Assembly: GCF_014596745.1 (NCBI RefSeq)
Contig: NZ_JABTCF010000005.1
Coordinates: forward strand, 248,001-312,000
Source of the DNA: Maribacter aquimaris
Lineage (GTDB): Bacteria; Bacteroidota; Bacteroidia; Flavobacteriales; Flavobacteriaceae
Reading direction: 5' to 3'
DNA: 64,000 bases
Positions 53,455 to 64,000 of this stretch are shown piece by piece. Both the position numbers and the translations under genes were made by a program. The stretch's first letter is position 1. Every line of letters begins with the position of its first letter. The notes below the pieces were generated by a model. That model worked only from the letters and a program-made list of their open reading frames with translations, made no database searches and was not told the DNA's origin.

Positions 53455-53525
53455 TGTAAACGTATTATTATTCGCAGCCAAAGATAACCAAAGTGAATTT
53501 GTTTTATTTACTTTGTCCCATTATT

Positions 53526-54671
53526 ATGGACAAACTCAAAAAAGCCTATATTTCAATTGGCAGTAATCTGGGGAATCGCCTACAGAACCTACAAAACGCC
53601 ATATTTCTATTAGACGCCGAAGTAGGTCGTATCCCTTTGGTTTCCAGAGTCTATGAAAGTGAATCCTGGGGGTTTGATGCAGACGATTTTCTAAACGCCT
53701 GTATCGTAATCGAAACCTATTTGACGCCCCAAGAGGTTCTGGAAAAAATATTTTCCATTGAAAAAAAACTCGGTAGGGAACGCAGCTTGAAAAACGGATA
53801 TGCATCAAGGACGATTGATATTGATATCATCTATTTTGAAAAGGAAATACTCCAAACCGATGCATTGACCATTCCACATCCGAATTTAAGGAAGCGTAAA
53901 TTCGTTCTCTTGCCGCTGGCGGATATCGCCCCCCAATTTTATCATCCGATCTACAACAAGGATACACGCAACTTGATACAGGAATGCAAAGACCAAACCC
54001 GGGTAGAAAAAACCAAACTCAAACTCCATAAGACCAAAAAAGAGCTGTTTGCCTCCTTGAACTTTATGGCCATCGAAGGTAATATTGGGGCAGGAAAAAC
54101 CACCTTGGCCCATAAAATAGCGGAAGACTTCAATGGCAAGTTGGTCTTGGAGCGTTTTGCCGACAACCCTTTCCTACCAAAATTCTATGAAGACCAAAGC
54201 CGTTATGCCTTTCCGTTGGAAATGTCCTTTCTAGCCGATCGATACCAACAATTTACCGATGATACATCACAGTTTGACCTTTTCAAGAATTTTATGGTCA
54301 GTGATTACGATATCTACAAATCATTGATTTTTGCACAGGTAACGTTACAGAGCGATGAGTTCAACCTTTATCGAAAACTCTTCAACCTAATGTACAAAGA
54401 GGTGCAGAAACCAAGGATTTATGTTTACCTCTACCAATCTACCGAAAGGTTGCTCGAAAACATCAAAAAGCGCGGCAGATCCTATGAACAGAGCATTGAA
54501 TCAACCTATTTGGATAAGATAAACAAAGGTTATTTCGATTTTTTCAAAAGTTATCCTGAGCAGAACACCCTCATTATCGATGTTGGGGATTTGGATTTCG
54601 TTGCCCACCCACAAGACTATGATGCTATTCTTGGGAAAATCCAGGATTTTGCCATCGACTTAAAATTTTAA
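53526..54671 (+). CDS. folK: Fused FolK-deoxynucleoside kinase
   Basis: 381 residues from ATG 53526. Residues 1-160 are a complete HPPK: AYISIGSNLGNRLQNL, LGRERSLKNGYASRTIDIDII with the Asp pair for Mg, and PHPNLRKRKFVLLPL. A Lys-rich linker spans about 160-178. Residues 180-381 are a deoxynucleoside kinase: P-loop GNIGAGKT at 185-192, LERFADNPFL, SFLADRYQQF and a LID with RGRSYEQSIE. One chain thus combines folate pyrophosphorylation with dNMP supply. No stop codon or frame break separates the halves. A terminator follows. Confidence 0.93.
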   Translation: MDKLKKAYISIGSNLGNRLQNLQNAIFLLDAEVGRIPLVSRVYESESWGFDADDFLNACIVIETYLTPQEVLEKIFSIEKKLGRERSLKNGYASRTIDIDIIYFEKEILQTDALTIPHPNLRKRKFVLLPLADIAPQFYHPIYNKDTRNLIQECKDQTRVEKTKLKLHKTKKELFASLNFMAIEGNIGAGKTTLAHKIAEDFNGKLVLERFADNPFLPKFYEDQSRYAFPLEMSFLADRYQQFTDDTSQFDLFKNFMVSDYDIYKSLIFAQVTLQSDEFNLYRKLFNLMYKEVQKPRIYVYLYQSTERLLENIKKRGRSYEQSIESTYLDKINKGYFDFFKSYPEQNTLIIDVGDLDFVAHPQDYDAILGKIQDFAIDLKF

Positions 54672-58283: not shown

Positions 58284-58356
58284 GCGAAAATAGCTCAGTT
58301 GGTAGAGCATCACCTTGCCAAGGTGGAGGTCGCGGGTTCGAATCCCGTTTTTCGCT
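58284..58356 (+). tRNA. tRNA-Gly (GCC)
   Basis: 73 bases with all arms: acceptor GCGAAAA / TTTTCGC, D-arm AGCTCAGTTGGTAGAGC, anticodon loop TTGCCAA on a CACC/GGTG stem, T-arm GCGGG-TTCGAAT-CCCGT, discriminator T. CCA is not encoded. Confidence 0.96.
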
Positions 58357-58357
58357 C

Positions 58358-58455: not shown

Positions 58456-58539
58456 GCTCGAGTGGTGGAATTGGTAGACACGTTGGACTTAAAATCCAAT
58501 GGACATTAGTCCGTACGGGTTCAAGTCCCGTCTCGAGTA
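58456..58539 (+). tRNA. tRNA-Leu (TAA)
   Basis: 84 bases. Acceptor GCTCGAG / CTCGAGT, anticodon stem-loop TTGGACTTAAAATCCAA with anticodon TAA, a long variable arm (TGGACATTAGTCCGT), T-loop TTCAAGT, discriminator A. It is the last recognisable chromosomal gene before the mobile element. Confidence 0.96.
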
Positions 58540-58545
58540 CAGAAG

Positions 58546-58586
58546 AAAACCTCAATCATCTAACTATCAAGATGTTGAGGTTTTTT
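58546..58586 (+). terminator. Terminator after tRNA-Leu
   Basis: Outer stem AAAACCTCAA / TTGAGGTTTT with an inner CATCT / AGATG stem and a T-run. Confidence 0.88.
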
Positions 58587-58733
58587 GTTTTTACTTTTTG
58601 TACGATTATTGTACTTATTTAAATTCTACCCGGTTTTATAAAATCATTTGAGTCCTTTTTGAAAAATGTTTTTTTTTAGAACTGCATTAGTACACAATAA
58701 TTTTTTATTTAATTCAAAATCAACTACTTAAAT

Positions 58734-58750
58734 AATGTAGTTACTACATT
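58734..58750. repeat. 17-base palindrome near the element border
   Basis: AATGTAGT-T-ACTACATT, perfect arms of 8 bases with one central base. It could be a recombinase or regulator binding site. Confidence 0.6.
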
Positions 58751-58863
58751 CCATCCCATTATTGCGGTGAAATTTTAGGGGAGGGGGTCCCCATCCACAC
58801 CATCGGCGCGTTGTTAGATTGTATAATCCCATCAAATAGCCTAAATAGATTGAAAGCAAGAAA

Positions 58864-58901
58864 AACCCCTCACAGTTTTTTATTTAAAACCGGGAGGGGT
58901 T
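58864..58901 (-). terminator. Terminator of the element operon
   Basis: Read on the minus strand: AACCCCTC, a 22-base loop, GAGGGGTT, then TTT. It lies 26 bases after the last gene of the operon. Confidence 0.8.
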
Positions 58902-58926
58902 GCCAAGAGCAATTTAAGAATGAAAC

Positions 58927-59640
58927 CTATTTAACCAAAGGTAGGAACGCTTTAAAATTCTCTATCAATCGATTAACCTCAGCATCACTTTTAACCCTTC
59001 CAAATCCGGAAGCTTTTAATACCATAGTCCTAAAATATGGAAGTACGTCCTTTGTTTTGAGTGAGGTAAGCCCGAATTTATTATCTAGGCAGTTCAGATA
59101 AAGATTATTCCTTTTATCTCTAAAAAACTGAATACCGATTTCAAGGGCAATACCCGCGACGATTTGCCCTAGTCTCTCGATTGTATCAATACGCTTTAGA
59201 TTTTCGTCGAGGTTTATTTCAGCATCGATAACCACCTCTATCAATTCATTCAAATAATCCTCGGAAGATTTCCTCTTGCCTTGTTGCATTTTATACTTAC
59301 CGGCTTCCGTAATAAGCCCGTTATAGAGCTGATATTTATCAATCTTATAACCGGACCATTCGGTCAATTTTTGCGCCGCTTCTTCAAAATCAGTTGATTT
59401 CATGTGTGTAGTGCTTAATCCCTTCACTTGTGCGCTGATATTATAGTCGTCTTTGATCAAGAAAATCACGCCATTCTCAAGAGAGGATTGGAAAGCGGCC
59501 TCAAATATTATTTGCCTGTTTTGTTGTTCCGAATGGTTCCTGTTTAAGTCCGCCTTAGGTAAGCTCTTTGTTGTTGTCGCGGCTATTTTAACGGCCATTT
59601 TTGCTCTTGCTATTTCTTGCATTTGTTTGAAATTTTTCAT
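58927..59640 (-). CDS. Element-encoded hypothetical protein (237 aa)
   Basis: 237 residues, mostly helical by composition and with no membrane segment. A Lys/Thr-rich N-terminus (ARAKMAVKIAATTTKSLPKA) precedes a Gln/Asn-rich part. The frame uses acidic and basic residues evenly, as a soluble protein would. I do not recognise the family. The ATG overlaps the stop of the previous gene (ATGA), so it is translationally coupled as the last gene of the operon. It could be a structural or packaging-interfering protein, or an accessory replication protein (speculation). Confidence 0.8.
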   Translation of the reverse strand: MKNFKQMQEIARAKMAVKIAATTTKSLPKADLNRNHSEQQNRQIIFEAAFQSSLENGVIFLIKDDYNISAQVKGLSTTHMKSTDFEEAAQKLTEWSGYKIDKYQLYNGLITEAGKYKMQQGKRKSSEDYLNELIEVVIDAEINLDENLKRIDTIERLGQIVAGIALEIGIQFFRDKRNNLYLNCLDNKFGLTSLKTKDVLPYFRTMVLKASGFGRVKSDAEVNRLIENFKAFLPLVK

Positions 59641-60218
59641 TTTTTCCAGTTTTCAAATTCATCTATTAATTGCTGCGGATCAATTTGCTCCGCTTGGCTT
59701 ATTTTATTCAAAATCTTCATATATCGCTTGGTAGGTCTGCCCCGGCAATACTTTTTGAAGTACTTATCATTAAGCTGGTCATAACATGAATCAAGCTCAA
59801 AGTAAGCTGCAAAGCGTTTATCCATCTCTCGCCATTTATGGGATCGTGTTTGCTTCCTATAAAGCGCTCCCGGCAGAACAGAGAAATGAACAAATCGCCC
59901 ACCGTAAAAGCTAAGTTTACGAGCCTTTTTCCCGCTAATCGGGCAAATAAACTCGTAAATAGTCCCCTTGCCTAGATTTGATAGCCTTGATACCAAAGGG
60001 ATTGTATCCCTTATCCTTTGCCCCTCATAATTATAGCCTATTTCAAGGCGCGAATCATTATCGTTCATAACCCCTACGGCCCTTACCTCAACCCCTCCTA
60101 CATAAAAGAAACCTCCGTTTAATTGCCCTTCTTTAAAGAATCCGGCTTTTCTAAGAGGCCCGGCGGTTATAGAGGGGAGTTCGTCAATAATAATCGGCAA
60201 TCTACTTTTCCGTCCCAT
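59637..60218 (-). CDS. Element-encoded hypothetical protein with degenerate Zn-ribbon-like segment (193 aa)
   Basis: 193 residues from ATG 60218. The centre reads IYEFICPISGKKARKLSFYGGRFVHF followed by ALYRKQTRSHKWREMDKR. This resembles the CPxCGxRCRxLY...YxSQxxSR layout of a family found in genomic islands, but only one Cys remains, so metal binding is unlikely. The C-terminus is basic (KKYCRGRPTKRYMK) and could bind nucleic acid. It overlaps the primase gene by 17 bases and the next gene by 4. Function unknown. Confidence 0.78.
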   Translation of the reverse strand: MGRKSRLPIIIDELPSITAGPLRKAGFFKEGQLNGGFFYVGGVEVRAVGVMNDNDSRLEIGYNYEGQRIRDTIPLVSRLSNLGKGTIYEFICPISGKKARKLSFYGGRFVHFSVLPGALYRKQTRSHKWREMDKRFAAYFELDSCYDQLNDKYFKKYCRGRPTKRYMKILNKISQAEQIDPQQLIDEFENWKK

Positions 60219-61272
60219 AAATATCAGCTATATCTTGCCCATCCGAACAGTTAGTATCTTCAACGTATCTACTAATTGACAAGCTCTTAACTAACCCTTC
60301 TATTTTAGCCCCTTTAGCTTTCCAGTCATTGAATTCCCCTTTATCAGGAAAAAGAACAATATCCCGAGACTGCAAGCCTTCAAAAAGCCCAGGCTTTAAA
60401 TTTTGCTTGCTACCACAAGCAAGCCAAAGATGCTGGGGACAATGGATGCTCATAATTATTGCGGTTTTCTCGCTCTCAACTATACAAACGGTCTTATCGT
60501 AATCGCTTGTAAGCAAATGCCGCCCATACAAACATTGCTGTAAATTGAAAGTATGTTCTTTATCAACGTTGTGAATCCAATTAATATGGGGGTAGGGTTC
60601 TTTTATCCTTTTCCCTGTTTCCGGATTATAGAGCATCACTTTACCGGCGTGGATCCGTTCTTGCTCATCTATTTGCCAAAAGACTGTTGAATTGTCCCAA
60701 AAATGGTTAGTCCCGGTCAATAAGTACTCAACGCAAGCCGTATTAACGGCGTCCTTTGCGAAGTTTGCCTGCAAGTAGGTAGTAAGGTTATCCTTTACCT
60801 TGACATCAATTAGCTCTAAGCTATGATAGCTTGGTTTCGGTTCTTCATACACAACCGCTGGGATTGTTTTAGGCTCGTCCTCCCCAAAGTATTTGATATC
60901 AGTAGTTGAAAAGGTTAATTTGCTATTGCTTAGAAACCAATCCGTAATATAACAGAAAGCATCCCCTTGCTCAAATATTTGACTCTTAGGCACAATCTCA
61001 ATTATTCCTAATGTATCTACAACTTTCATGGCTTTGGCTGAAATGCTCCGTGCCGATAAGAAATCAACACGGTTGCATTTTCTGCCTTTGATAGCTGGGG
61101 ATTTGTGGTAACCACAAGAGCTTTCCCGATCACAACGCCCAAGGTTTTGATCGTCTAAGTATTCATTTGTTTTGACATCCACATACCTAACAAAACGACG
61201 TTTGCCGCAACTAGGGCAAATATGCTTTTTGGGGCTTGGATCTAATCTATATCTAAAATTCCCTTGATTCAT
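60202..61272 (-). CDS. Primase-like protein with Zn finger and Toprim-like domain (DUF6371 type)
   Basis: 356 residues from ATG 61272 (GTG 61275 also possible). The N-terminal Zn finger is HICPSCGKRRFVRYVD with a later GRCDRESSCGYHKSP (CxxC and Cx5C), as in CHC2-type primase fingers. A Toprim-like C-terminal part has VCIVESEKTAIIMS and IVLFPDKGEFNDW, holding the conserved Glu and Asp. It matches DUF6371-type proteins of Bacteroidota mobile elements. It likely makes primers for the element's own helicase, encoded just upstream with a 20-base overlap. Confidence 0.82.
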   Translation of the reverse strand: MNQGNFRYRLDPSPKKHICPSCGKRRFVRYVDVKTNEYLDDQNLGRCDRESSCGYHKSPAIKGRKCNRVDFLSARSISAKAMKVVDTLGIIEIVPKSQIFEQGDAFCYITDWFLSNSKLTFSTTDIKYFGEDEPKTIPAVVYEEPKPSYHSLELIDVKVKDNLTTYLQANFAKDAVNTACVEYLLTGTNHFWDNSTVFWQIDEQERIHAGKVMLYNPETGKRIKEPYPHINWIHNVDKEHTFNLQQCLYGRHLLTSDYDKTVCIVESEKTAIIMSIHCPQHLWLACGSKQNLKPGLFEGLQSRDIVLFPDKGEFNDWKAKGAKIEGLVKSLSISRYVEDTNCSDGQDIADIYGTEK

Positions 61273-62812
61273 CACTCAATTTTTTAGATATAAGAACAAC
61301 CATTCCGGGAGCCATCCGCTTAGAGTTGATATTGTAATGAGCCAAGCGCTTGGAAAAATTAGTCTTGCTAACTGGCTTAAAACCATCTTCGGAGCAAAAT
61401 CGCCTATACTCTTGGTAAAGGGATTTTAACAAGGTGTAGGCATTGTTAGATGGCTCGTAACCCTCCTCATCAATAAATTGTTTAACGCTATCACTTTGCT
61501 TTTTATATTGGTCGAGGGCCTTTTCAATCGCTTCGCATTTCGTATAATCCGATTGAGCTAAAAGCCGCTTCAAACCATCCAAAACCCAATTGAAGACCCC
61601 TGACAACTCGTTTTGCGTTATCTTCTTACTAAGGTTCACATCTTTTTTATTGTCTGGAATCGATACATCAAAATGAATCACAAGGAACCTTCGAAAAAAA
61701 GCTCGGGTGTGTTGAACATCTTTAGGGAGTTCATTACAATTGAAGATTAACTTTGCGTAATCCTTAACATTTAACGGTTCTCCATAAGGTAAACGGGCTT
61801 CAACCGGCTCACCACTTGCGAGTTGTTTGAATAAATTTATTTCCAAACGCCCGTTCATTTCGCTAGCATAGTTTACCAGTACATCCGCAATTTTGGCCCG
61901 GTAATAACCAGAATTATCGGTTAAGGATTGTAACGAATAATTACTTACATTTTCCTTTCCCAAAAGGGCGTTGATAATTTCAAAGAATACGCTTTTACCA
62001 TTCGCCCCTTCGCCATATAAGATCAACACTTTTTCAAGCTTCAATACGGATGTAGATATAAAAACGCTTGCTATATATTCGGCTAAAACTTTCTGTTTAT
62101 TAACATCGGGCAGAACCTCATCAAGATACTTTTGAAATAAGGGGGCTTTTGCTCTCGGGTCATATTTAAAAGGTAACTGATGTTTTAAGAAGTCGCCGCG
62201 ATCAAAGGGTCTTAATTGCTGTTTGGTTGCGCTAATCTCAAAGGTTCCGTTTTGCAGATTGATAAATACCTTTTCTTTATCAGCTTCCGGCGTTAGCAAA
62301 TAAGCCACGGCCATGAACGTCCTATATAGATCTTCTGAGAACTTAAAGGATTTAGCCGTAAACCTATCGACACCCATTGCCATGGCCGTACGGCCTAGGA
62401 AATATTGAAAACGCTCTTTGTCAACCGCTTTCCAGTATTCGCCGTTGTAGATATAAATAAAGCCCGACCTTTTACAAAGGCCCCAATCATTAGTTTCTGC
62501 GATCGTTAATAGTTGTTCAATACACAATATCAAATAGTGATTTCGGTTAAGCTTATAACTCCCTAATTGTTTTTGAAGTTGCTGGTATCTCTTTACCTCC
62601 TTTGTATTCTTTTCAGAGTAACTACCATCTTTTTCAAAGACAAAAGTTTTTAGCTCTTTTATCTCGGCCTTAATTATCTCAATGTCCGGAAAGGCTAACA
62701 ATTTAAAATCAATCGGTCCAATTTGATCGAGAAGGATATCTAGTATATCGCTTGACTTACTAGGGGTTTGGGCAGAAACAATCCTTTCTGCTTTCATAAT
62801 TACATCTTCCAT
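61253..62812 (-). CDS. P4/D5-type replicative helicase
   Basis: 519 residues from ATG 62812; a TTG start at 62839 would overlap the previous gene. A D5_N-like region includes VFINLQNGTFEI. The SF3 ATPase has Walker A GEGANGKS at about 267-274, NYASEMNGRLE as the Walker B region, and LIFNCNELPKDVQHTRAFFRRFLVI with sensor and arginine-finger residues. The C-terminal part (FIDEEGYEPSNNAYTLLKSLYQEYRRFC) is the winged helix of P4 primase-helicases. The primase domain itself is missing and is supplied by the next gene. It drives autonomous replication of the element. Confidence 0.88.
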   Translation of the reverse strand: MEDVIMKAERIVSAQTPSKSSDILDILLDQIGPIDFKLLAFPDIEIIKAEIKELKTFVFEKDGSYSEKNTKEVKRYQQLQKQLGSYKLNRNHYLILCIEQLLTIAETNDWGLCKRSGFIYIYNGEYWKAVDKERFQYFLGRTAMAMGVDRFTAKSFKFSEDLYRTFMAVAYLLTPEADKEKVFINLQNGTFEISATKQQLRPFDRGDFLKHQLPFKYDPRAKAPLFQKYLDEVLPDVNKQKVLAEYIASVFISTSVLKLEKVLILYGEGANGKSVFFEIINALLGKENVSNYSLQSLTDNSGYYRAKIADVLVNYASEMNGRLEINLFKQLASGEPVEARLPYGEPLNVKDYAKLIFNCNELPKDVQHTRAFFRRFLVIHFDVSIPDNKKDVNLSKKITQNELSGVFNWVLDGLKRLLAQSDYTKCEAIEKALDQYKKQSDSVKQFIDEEGYEPSNNAYTLLKSLYQEYRRFCSEDGFKPVSKTNFSKRLAHYNINSKRMAPGMVVLISKKLSDESREF

Positions 62813-62813
62813 G

Positions 62814-63059
62814 TTACGCAGTTTTTTTGTTGATTCCAAGTTGTTTTAAAATGCCATTGCTAACCTCTATTATAAATGAACGGCTTTTAAATTGTTCCCA
62901 GGAACAAGCGAACACCGCGACACATTCCCCGTTGATTTCGGAGCTTACCAAAACATAGCCGGGAATGAAGAACTTTCTTGCCTTATGTTCAATGAATTTT
63001 ATATCTTTGCCCTTATCGCCGCGAAACGATATTGGGCCTTGTTTACTCTTTGTATTCAT
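62814..63059 (-). CDS. Element-encoded small protein, unknown
   Basis: 81 residues. A basic N-terminus (NTKSKQGPISFRGDKGKDIK) precedes a short beta-rich core (FFIPGYVLVSSEINGECVAVFACSW). I do not recognise the family. It starts 8 bases after the excisionase gene and ends 1 base before the helicase ATG, so it belongs to the same transcript. Its position between xis and the replicase is common for small regulators of element replication. Confidence 0.7.
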   Translation of the reverse strand: MNTKSKQGPISFRGDKGKDIKFIEHKARKFFIPGYVLVSSEINGECVAVFACSWEQFKSRSFIIEVSNGILKQLGINKKTA

Positions 63060-63067
63060 GGCCTTTT

Positions 63068-63352
63068 TTATTTTTTTACAGGGGTTAAAGATTCAAGTAA
63101 TTCGGATTTTTTGTAATAACGGCGGTTGCCAATCCCATAGGCTTTGACCTTTCCTTTATTGGTCCAATGCCATAGCGTGGAAGAATCGATTTGGAACAAT
63201 TTACAGACCTCATCCCGACAAAGGAGAATGTCCCCAATTTCTTTTTTAACTAAGGCTGAATTTAGTTTTTCCAAGCCCTGTGATAGGCGCTCATCGATTA
63301 ACTTGCCTAGATCCTCCTTAGACAAGTTTTGCAGTAAAATTGAATTTGACAT
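63068..63352 (-). CDS. Excisionase-like helix-turn-helix protein
   Basis: 94 residues. After an N-terminal helical part the domain reads LLCRDEVCKLFQIDSSTLWHWTNKGKVKAYGIGNRRYYKKSELLESL, the MerR/Xis-type winged helix (HTH_17). Such proteins bend DNA for excision or act as activators in mobile elements. It is the first gene of the minus-strand operon, directly below the regulatory region. Confidence 0.88.
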   Translation of the reverse strand: MSNSILLQNLSKEDLGKLIDERLSQGLEKLNSALVKKEIGDILLCRDEVCKLFQIDSSTLWHWTNKGKVKAYGIGNRRYYKKSELLESLTPVKK

Positions 63353-63376
63353 TATTAAAATTTTAAATTAATGCCT

Positions 63377-63407
63377 CAAAATTACCCTTCACGGAAAGCA
63401 ATTAAAA
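63377..63407 (-). promoter_or_regulatory. Putative promoter of the element operon
   Basis: Minus strand TTTT (63407-63404), a 19-base spacer and a perfect TAATTTTG (63384-63377), 24 bases before the excisionase ATG. Confidence 0.5.
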
Positions 63408-63689
63408 GACCAGTTTTCGATAATAATCAACGGAATTCAATCTAATCGAAAGATGGTAGTAATAGTTGTTTGAAATGGCTGGTTTTCAGTAATTTGAAAA
63501 TTTATAAATTTTTTTTAGTGTTGATATATTGGTGTAAGCCACCCTTAAAACCGAACTGTTTAAAAGTAGAATTGATTAACTTTAAGCCTAGATGGACAAA
63601 AGATAAGTTAGGACACTATCTCGGCGAACCAAAAAAATATTGAAAGTTTAAATAAAGGATTTGTTATCTTAGTTCCTCGCATAAAAGAT

Positions 63690-63711
63690 ATATAGATCAT
63701 TTGATCTATAT
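63690..63711. promoter_or_regulatory. Palindromic operator candidate
   Basis: ATATAGATCA-TT-TGATCTATAT: perfect 10-base arms with a 2-base centre. It lies just after the expected transcription start of the rightward gene and 32 bases before its GTG. The size and symmetry suit a dimeric repressor. Confidence 0.65.
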
Positions 63712-63742
63712 TCCTACGTTACCGCCAATTAAAAAAAAATTA

Positions 63743-64000
63743 GTGCAAGAAACAGAACGCATATCAAAAGAATTATTGGGAGAAGAAGCTTCCATTTGGT
63801 TTACGGAACAACTTAATGATTTAAGTATTTTGATAAAGGCTCCAATCAATACTTGTAAATCATTAATTAATGACTGCGGAGCAGAAATAATAATAGGAAA
63901 AGATAATACGTTAGATAAACCAATTATCCATACAGGAATAAGAATACTTGATGATAAGGTTAATCCATTATTATTAACAGGTTCTCATAGATATCGTGAA
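63743..64000 (+). CDS. Unknown AT-rich protein, 5' part only
   Basis: From GTG 63743 the frame stays open for 86 codons to the window edge; the in-frame TTG at 63701 would add 14 residues and would overlap the palindrome. It starts VQETERISKELLGEEASIWF and continues with SILIKAPINTCKSLINDCGAE. No family is recognised and it does not look like a tyrosine recombinase start. Codon use is much more AT-rich than in the core genes to the left, suggesting cargo or recent arrival. The rest lies outside the window. Confidence 0.65.
   Translation, partial: MQETERISKELLGEEASIWFTEQLNDLSILIKAPINTCKSLINDCGAEIIIGKDNTLDKPIIHTGIRILDDKVNPLLLTGSHRYRE

Follow-up and report, generated by a model that had tools for sequence, protein, structure and literature searches.

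A tRNA-Leu-integrated element of Maribacter aquimaris whose design probably resembles that of minimal phage satellites

The stretch of DNA analyzed here, which we call the window, comprises 64,000 nucleotides of Maribacter aquimaris, positions 248,001–312,000 of contig C23 (NZ_JABTCF010000005.1), in a genome of 4.86 Mb and 27 contigs (G000). Near its right end, a tRNA-Leu gene is followed by six minus-strand open reading frames (ORFs) in tandem. They belong to an element that extends past the window to the end of C23 and, as argued below, onto contig C24. Its features, in window coordinates unless a contig is named, are the following.

58284..58357, plus strand: tRNA-Gly(GCC), host flank (ARAGORN, Rfam).
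58456..58540, plus strand: tRNA-Leu(TAA), the integration target (ARAGORN, Rfam).
58526..58547, plus strand: attL, 22 bp consisting of the tRNA-Leu 3' end and 7 bases beyond it.
58927..59640, minus strand: w237, no PHROGs or Pfam match.
59637..60218, minus strand: w193, a recurrent element-end gene.
60202..61275, minus strand: putative primase with Zn_ribbon_16 (Pfam, 75.5 bits) and DUF6371 (191.5 bits).
61253..62839, minus strand: replicative helicase of superfamily 3 (SF3) type (Pfam D5_N 55.2, DUF5906 63.9 and Pox_D5 25.1 bits).
62814..63059, minus strand: small ORF, in a slot that holds an 88–103-aa gene in several relatives; weak match to PHROG 1812 (unknown function), E 0.0048.
63068..63352, minus strand: HTH_17 regulator of Xis/AlpA type (Pfam HTH_17 40.6 bits; PHROGs helix-turn-helix 2.6e-5, excisionase 0.00096).
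63701..64000, plus strand: 5' part of a 413-aa cargo ORF that continues to C23:312942; its true start may follow 63718.
63718..63727, plus strand: start of a cassette-like unit (GTT plus 7 bases), whose exact reverse complement is found at the end of the 413-aa ORF, at C23:312924.
C24:3253-4530: tyrosine integrase, 425 aa, intact (Pfam PF00589 47.5 bits, SAM_5 39.6 bits).
C24:4692-4713 in G000: attR, an exact copy of the 22-bp attL.

The case for insertion is made by a genome of the same genus, G007, in which MutS, tRNA-Gly and tRNA-Leu are followed by the genes that in G000 are located at C24:10919 onward. In a base-by-base comparison, this empty site has 97% identity to C23 up to the att sequence and thereafter matches C24:4786-4889 (80%) and then C24:10881-12000 (87%). 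By this alignment, C23 and C24 are adjacent in the ancestral order, with the element between the two att copies; its assembled length is 7,116 bases on C23 and 4,713 bases on C24, 11.8 kb together, plus an unassembled piece. The locus thus has an integrase within flanking direct repeats and an unoccupied counterpart in a congener, the two marks of mobility, and judged by this comparison it is an integrated mobile element. A sequence-only reading of the window had proposed searching for an integrase, for another copy of the 3' end of tRNA-Leu and for an empty site in related genomes; the first two are on C24 and the third is in G007. Its remark that no integrase appears before the edge holds for the window, and the integrase of the element lies beyond it. 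The empty site also excludes the outcome that would have spoken against mobility, namely that the locus is a fixed part of the chromosome.

In those relatives' loci that hold tRNA-Leu, it is likewise adjoined by tRNA-Gly and MutS. The end of this tRNA gene is, by the comparison of these genomes, an integration hotspot. In G003 the tRNA-Leu end recurs 2.5 kb away, accompanied by an integrase-domain ORF (L057:8492-11036), and in G009 such a copy adjoins another tyrosine integrase (L059:8934-10364), which we read as other integrase-bearing insertions or their remnants. To the right of attR in G000, before the conserved flank is reached, about 6 kb (C24:4890-10880, the same as L010:4890-10880) finds no counterpart in the part of G007 that was compared, a difference distinct from the insertion of the element. 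An AXE1-domain esterase and a GH28 protein are encoded there, and a short piece (L010:4924-4950) is similar to sequence at the far side.

The coupled operon beside tRNA-Leu that the sequence-only reading had described is borne out. With mechanically assigned starts, its six ORFs are separated by +8, −26, −23, −17 and −4 bases, four of the five junctions overlapping, and Pfam recognizes HTH_17, D5 and DUF6371 in them. The helicase matches the PHROGs family "DNA primase" at 3.9e-79 and carries a Walker A motif (GEGANGKS) and a LIFNCNE motif, the significance of both being presumed here. Its profile has a single relative in the PDB at E ≤ 0.001, the "DNA primase" 7ola (6e-8), which we take to be a protein of the SaPI5 satellite. 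The neighboring gene had been called a Zn-finger/Toprim-like primase, and this stands in part: Zn_ribbon_16 and DUF6371 are found by Pfam, and the Toprim-like part has as its sole basis the meaning that we presume for the motifs VESEKTA and FPDKGE. The DUF6371 protein has no relative in the PDB at E ≤ 1, and the proteins of 62814-63059, 59637-60218 and 58927-59640 match no Pfam family above the cut-off.

This module is not confined to one genome. A primase search matched 11 of 99 genomes, and the helicase profile matched 15 of the 397 genomes of the family at E ≤ 1e-60, the source genome being counted in both; a scan of genome contigs gave 8 loci, all Bacteroidota by title. Relatives are present in named strains (Maribacter polysaccharolyticus D37, Bizionia saleffrena HFD, Wocania arenilitoris and Salinimicrobium sp. 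TH3). The pairing of a D5 helicase with a DUF6371 gene, which had been proposed as characteristic of Bacteroidota, does recur in Flavobacteriaceae, and also in phage contigs. In the five loci with complete surroundings (L104, L105, L106, L107 and L109) the order is int, one or more accessory genes, xis, helicase and primase; in four of them, a small gene separates xis from the helicase. Direct repeats of at least 14 bp were found at 10 of the 15 loci tested, nine of the ten at tRNA or tmRNA ends, and their spacing in the repeat-bounded relatives is 6,659–9,395 bases.

L104: 14-bp repeat, no tRNA gene called there.
L105: 16-bp repeat, tRNA-Ala.
L106: 16-bp repeat, tmRNA.
L107: 15-bp repeat, tmRNA.
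L109: 16-bp repeat, tRNA-Ser.
L148, L150, L151, L152 and L158: repeats of 15–49 bp, at tRNA-Arg, -Ser, -Arg, -Ala and -Ala, respectively.

The zones compared, adjoining the tRNA and past the integrase, were picked by hand. Among controls, repeats of at least 14 bp occurred in 7 of 710 zones, and in the control for the five loci with complete surroundings (730 zone pairs) the 95th percentile was 13 bases and the maximum 92. The integrases of L148 and L151 were missed by our own profile and confirmed by Pfam. A 93-aa Wocania gene (L107/L091) was considered as a terminase small subunit and rejected, its DUF1804 match (E 0.026) being below the cut-off and its PHROGs matches unknown or weak.

The same module is found in phages. 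Fourteen viral contigs match the primase profile and four the helicase profile, two of the latter closely (59–61%); an earlier viral scan with a single primase sequence had found no relative. In the IMG/VR contigs L112 and L126, the genes run int, accessory (acc2), xis, small gene, helicase and primase, as in the element, with identities to it of 57–61% for the helicase (L112/L126) and 48% for the primase (L112). Downstream, PHROGs identifies genes for portal, head morphogenesis, TerS, TerL and tape measure in L112; in L126, our own profile identifies TerL, and a structural-type protein is present as well. Among 25 loci, a TerL profile built on L112 and L116 matches those two and L126 only; relatives of the L112 TerL were found in 4 of 60 genomes searched, one of them close (58%, G013). 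Of the 17 inner branches of the helicase tree (20 rows, rooted at the midpoint), 7 are well supported; in this tree the phages group with Salinimicrobium (91/87) inside an eight-row set (97/95), and the window helicase is placed just outside (93/90). A human faecal phage record, L171 (MT835758, 18,987 bases), has a tyrosine integrase, a 265-aa gene, a 92-aa gene and a helicase (49% to that of the element) in that order, adjoining bacterial-looking genes, and may be a relative of the element from the gut.

Cargo lies in the slot between xis and int, which is filled here with cassette-like units. C23 ends 1,641 bases to the right of the window, with the rest of the 413-aa ORF, then a 132-aa ORF and then a stretch shared with other contigs; C24 has a shared stretch, a 237-aa ORF, a 549-aa AriAB-like protein and then, on the opposite strand, the integrase. 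The unit-start 10-mers GTTACCGCCA, GTTAGCTGTA and GTTGTGCTCA of the 413-aa, 237-aa and AriAB-like ORFs have exact reverse complements at the unit ends, and the unit of the 132-aa ORF has nine complementary bases, counted by eye. The complementarity of start and end by which cassettes are recognized is therefore present, as three exact 10-base pairs in the two element ends; the background is 4 such pairs in the 64-kb window, 2 in C13 and a single pair at the ends of each of C5, C21 and C24. The core sites themselves, GTTACCG, GTTAGCT and GTTGTGC, retain only the GTT of the integron consensus GTTRRRY, as given in the available part of its source. When five attC-like sites were folded as single-stranded DNA and compared with shuffles, four had z values from −2.49 to −6.61 (two of these four being equalled by 2–3 of 200 shuffles) and one had +0.66. 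No integron integrase (TIGR02249) exceeds the cut-off in the assembly, the best score being 74.2 bits versus 265, and sub-threshold tyrosine recombinases are likewise present in 14 of 14 control genomes. By these features the cargo units are integron-like and resemble integrase-less cassette arrays. Few integrons are reported in Bacteroidetes in the available text of IntegronFinder 2.0 (PMC9024848), and cassettes in phage genomes are already described in that of PMC9892861.

Similar runs are seen elsewhere in the assembly. C9 (L066), C3 (L070) and C14 (L068) carry ORFs mostly on the same strand with attC-like sites between them, and C14 has defence-like genes for a 704-aa AAA_15 plus DUF4435 (AriAB-type) protein, a Schlafen/AlbA_2 protein and a DEAD-box helicase. 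Ten-base pairs number 15 in the first 20 kb of C9, 8 in the first 20 kb of C3 and 7 in C14, of which 4, 1 and 5, respectively, are the repeated word GTTGCACAAG, likely an insertion-sequence remnant and to be discounted; C9:20001-40000 has 5, one of them GTTGCACAAG.

As for what the cargo encodes, the PADLOC profile for AriAB (PDLC02982) covers residues 19–516 of the 549-aa protein (E 4.1e-37). Its match to the solved AriA is weak (E 0.0008), and Pfam finds an AAA domain only, with no separate DUF4435. The 413-aa ORF is weakly NERD-like (E 0.004, 18.1 bits, under the cut-off of 22.1), and the 132-aa ORF (L009:8109-8507), within its cassette-like unit, consists of glycine-rich repeated units of YTGPGGG type and has no Pfam match. 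In G075 the xis–int slot contains, by eye, genes like those of type I restriction-modification.

Two repeated stretches mark the place where the element is interrupted. One of 118 bases (L009:8524-8641) is common to the ends of C23, C24, C21 and C14 and, reversed, to the start of C5; another of about 114 bases (L010:1-114) is common to the starts of C24, C9, C14 and C3 and, reversed, to the end of C13. Probably one repeated piece present in about five copies breaks the assembly. The whole repeat was not found in the assembly, and none of the 11 other genomes of the same genus that were searched matches its C23-end part. Among the assembled ORFs of the element, whose middle is unassembled, PHROGs and Pfam searches recognized no capsid, portal, terminase or other virion gene, and its Pfam matches include no relaxase, mobilization (Mob) or conjugation gene.

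The gene w193 deserves separate mention. A seven-member profile finds it in 12 of the 397 genomes of the family, five of which (G000, G245, G273, G276 and G344) are among the 15 that have the helicase. It stands directly behind the DUF6371 gene in L187 and L189 and two genes behind it in L185, the ATPase ahead being of DUF3987 type in L185 and L189 and of AAA_25 type in L187. In L186 and L188 it occurs in loci with an integrase and xis and no recognized primase, L191 has fragments, and in L190 (8856-16097) some genes separate it from one resembling a tape measure gene (PhageMin_Tail 9e-7, under the cut-off). Its AlphaFold model is confident (predicted local distance difference test, pLDDT, 88.2) and has no match at E ≤ 0.001 in the PDB or BFVD. 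We would guess at a role in replication or packaging. Homologues of w237 are present in L104 (38%) and L147 (29%); its best AlphaFold2 model has a pLDDT of 84.5, the other four 43.8–69.4, and it has no match in BFVD at E ≤ 0.001. Neither gene has relatives in the IMG/VR scans, which used patterns built from two sequences each, and neither profile matches in L112 or L126.

We consider it probable, at roughly 0.6, that the element is an integrated, minimal, phage-satellite-like mobile island close in design to the phage-inducible chromosomal minimalist islands (PICMIs). The element would be mobilized by a helper phage, a route that we infer because no virion, packaging or conjugation gene is recognized in the assembled parts and the module is common to phages. 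In such a cycle, the HTH_17 protein would help the integrase to excise the element, the SF3 helicase and the zinc-ribbon/DUF6371 protein, presumably a primase, would replicate the excised circle, and a helper phage would package it; these roles are read from the protein families. The AriAB (PARIS-like) cargo may protect the host, and hence the element, against other phages. Of the pair of lifestyles offered by the sequence-only reading, an island like the phage-inducible chromosomal islands or a small integrative and conjugative element, the former probably fits better, no relaxase having been found in the assembled parts. More tentatively, at somewhat less than even odds, the relatives could form an undescribed family of minimal satellites in Flavobacteriaceae, of about 7–9 kb, with the order int, cargo, xis, helicase/ATPase, DUF6371 and w193, located at tRNA or tmRNA ends, having its early module in common with temperate phages and capable of taking up integron-like units (here AriAB/PARIS-like and weakly NERD-like genes).

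A number of observations weigh against the satellite interpretation. The support comes from sequence. The unassembled middle of the element, caused by the repeat and to which contig C14 may or may not belong, could conceal a relaxase or a packaging gene, and in the assembled part neither a terminase small subunit nor a capsid-redirecting gene was recognized. A relative of the L112 TerL was searched for in the source genome and is absent. Phages often carry SF3 helicases of this sort (1216 of 50,697 records, just 1 covering 80% of the query), so that the helicase by itself is not diagnostic. In the integrase tree, which has 12 rows, the two phages sit on a long branch that is not firmly placed, and the trees do not show the direction of exchange. 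No repeat was found at five of the 15 loci tested (L147, L149, L154, L155 and L157), and repeats of 14–16 bp barely exceed the control 95th percentile of 13; we count the short ones as support because they are placed at a tRNA or tmRNA end. The accessory genes of the relatives gave 0 of 10 PADLOC matches at E ≤ 0.01, so that a general defence role of the slot is unsupported. Finally, DUF6371 genes are likewise found in Tn4555 and on 11 plasmid records.

The last point leads to the main rival, an integrative mobilizable element (IME) of the Tn4555 or Bacteroides type, which would excise through Int and Xis, replicate with the helicase and DUF6371 protein and transfer via a co-resident conjugative system, its Mob function lying in the assembly gap or being supplied in trans. 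We regard this as unlikely. The available part of PMC13183296 lists an integrase, TnpC, an excisionase, an AAA ATPase and a DUF6371 protein for Tn4555. A 10,057-bp circular record, which appears to be Tn4555-like, combines an integrase, an excisionase, an AAA ATPase and a DUF6371 protein with a mobilization protein and CfxA, and of the 11 plasmid records 4 are predicted conjugative and 7 non-mobilizable; both fit an IME. However, Pfam finds no relaxase or Mob in the assembled element or in the accessory genes of the seven repeat-bounded relatives L105, L106, L107, L109, L148, L150 and L151, and the entire module from int to primase is present in phage contigs.

Those contigs might in principle be read the other way, the element being a decayed prophage that kept an L112-like early region, from int to primase, lost its late genes and is now stuck. 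L112 and L126 do show the same early order plus late genes, phage and element helicases intermix in the tree, and the w193 relative of L190 is near a tail-like gene. Nevertheless, this seems improbable: the reduced layout, similar size and terminal repeats recur across genera and sites, the integrase and all six operon genes have uninterrupted reading frames, and w193 recurs in the family and has no relative in the viral scan made. Less probable again is a helper-free, tRNA-targeting island spread by vesicles or natural transformation, presumably in the manner of tycheposons; the presence of an integrase, helicase/primase and cargo and the lack of packaging genes agree with it equally well, but nothing seen points to vesicles or competence, for which no search was made, and the phage-shared module favours a phage route. 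A small integrative and conjugative element was rejected, there being no conjugation gene among the assembled ORFs searched.

Apart from the element, the window ORF 53493-54671 encodes HPPK (folate biosynthesis, 126 bits) fused to a deoxynucleoside kinase (138 bits).

With relatives in sequenced, named strains and phage contigs that share its module, the element opens the question of satellites in Bacteroidota to a direct test. Such elements may, moreover, acquire defence genes in the form of integron-like units, and w193 is singled out as a recurrent unknown gene for study. Phage satellites are best known from Proteobacteria and Firmicutes, and our literature search found no work pairing a phage satellite with Flavobacteriaceae. 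Among what it returned for Bacteroidota and phage satellites is PMC12324425, which, in its available text, concerns a different, archaeal element. The split replicase had been called little studied, in agreement with that search, where DUF6371 was met only within the Tn4555 gene list, as far as the available text of that source extends.

Several known systems can be set beside the element. A separate primase–helicase pair on a mobile element has a precedent in SCCmec, according to the available part of PMC7581432. Tn4555, in the available text on it, is likewise a small element that unites an integrase, an excisionase, an ATPase and a DUF6371 protein. The Tn4555 type is set apart by a mobilization protein and CfxA and by an ATPase annotated merely as AAA family, and nothing w193-like is annotated in it; no Mob was found in the assembled parts of our element. 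The phages L112 and L126 have the element's order of int, accessory, xis, small gene, helicase and primase, but they continue into late genes and lack w193 and w237 matches. For the cargo, the nearest likeness is to clusters of attC sites lacking integron integrases: the GTT+7 start of the element's ORFs is exactly complementary to the end site, and some sites outfold shuffles, but the core sites depart from GTTRRRY. PARIS is approached in that the AriAB profile, of the fused form, spans most of the 549-aa protein, in which, however, Pfam does not detect DUF4435, the AriB part.

The closest comparison is with PICMIs. In the available text of PMC10803314, these are 6.1-kb islands of Vibrionaceae with fis as target and one gene that is a defence system; in PICMI115, excision requires alpA, int and iolg, and removal of prim reduces circle copies. 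The element has three profiles of the PICMI search model (PF00589, PF12728 and PF19263), and with them the combination of an integrase, AlpA/HTH_17 and a DUF5906 or DUF3987 protein. Like a PICMI, it combines a tyrosine integrase, an HTH_17/AlpA-type regulator, a DUF5906 replication protein, few unknown genes and direct repeats, and the relatives span 6.7–9.4 kb versus 6.1 kb. It is not at fis; the element is at tRNA-Leu and its relatives are at tRNA or tmRNA ends, and because of this target we do not file it as a PICMI. It differs, too, in its Bacteroidota host, in the separate zinc-ribbon/DUF6371 gene beside the helicase and in the end gene w193. The satellite-like kind of island is already known, and what differs here is the host phylum, the target sites, the separate helicase and DUF6371 genes, w193 and the cassette-like cargo.

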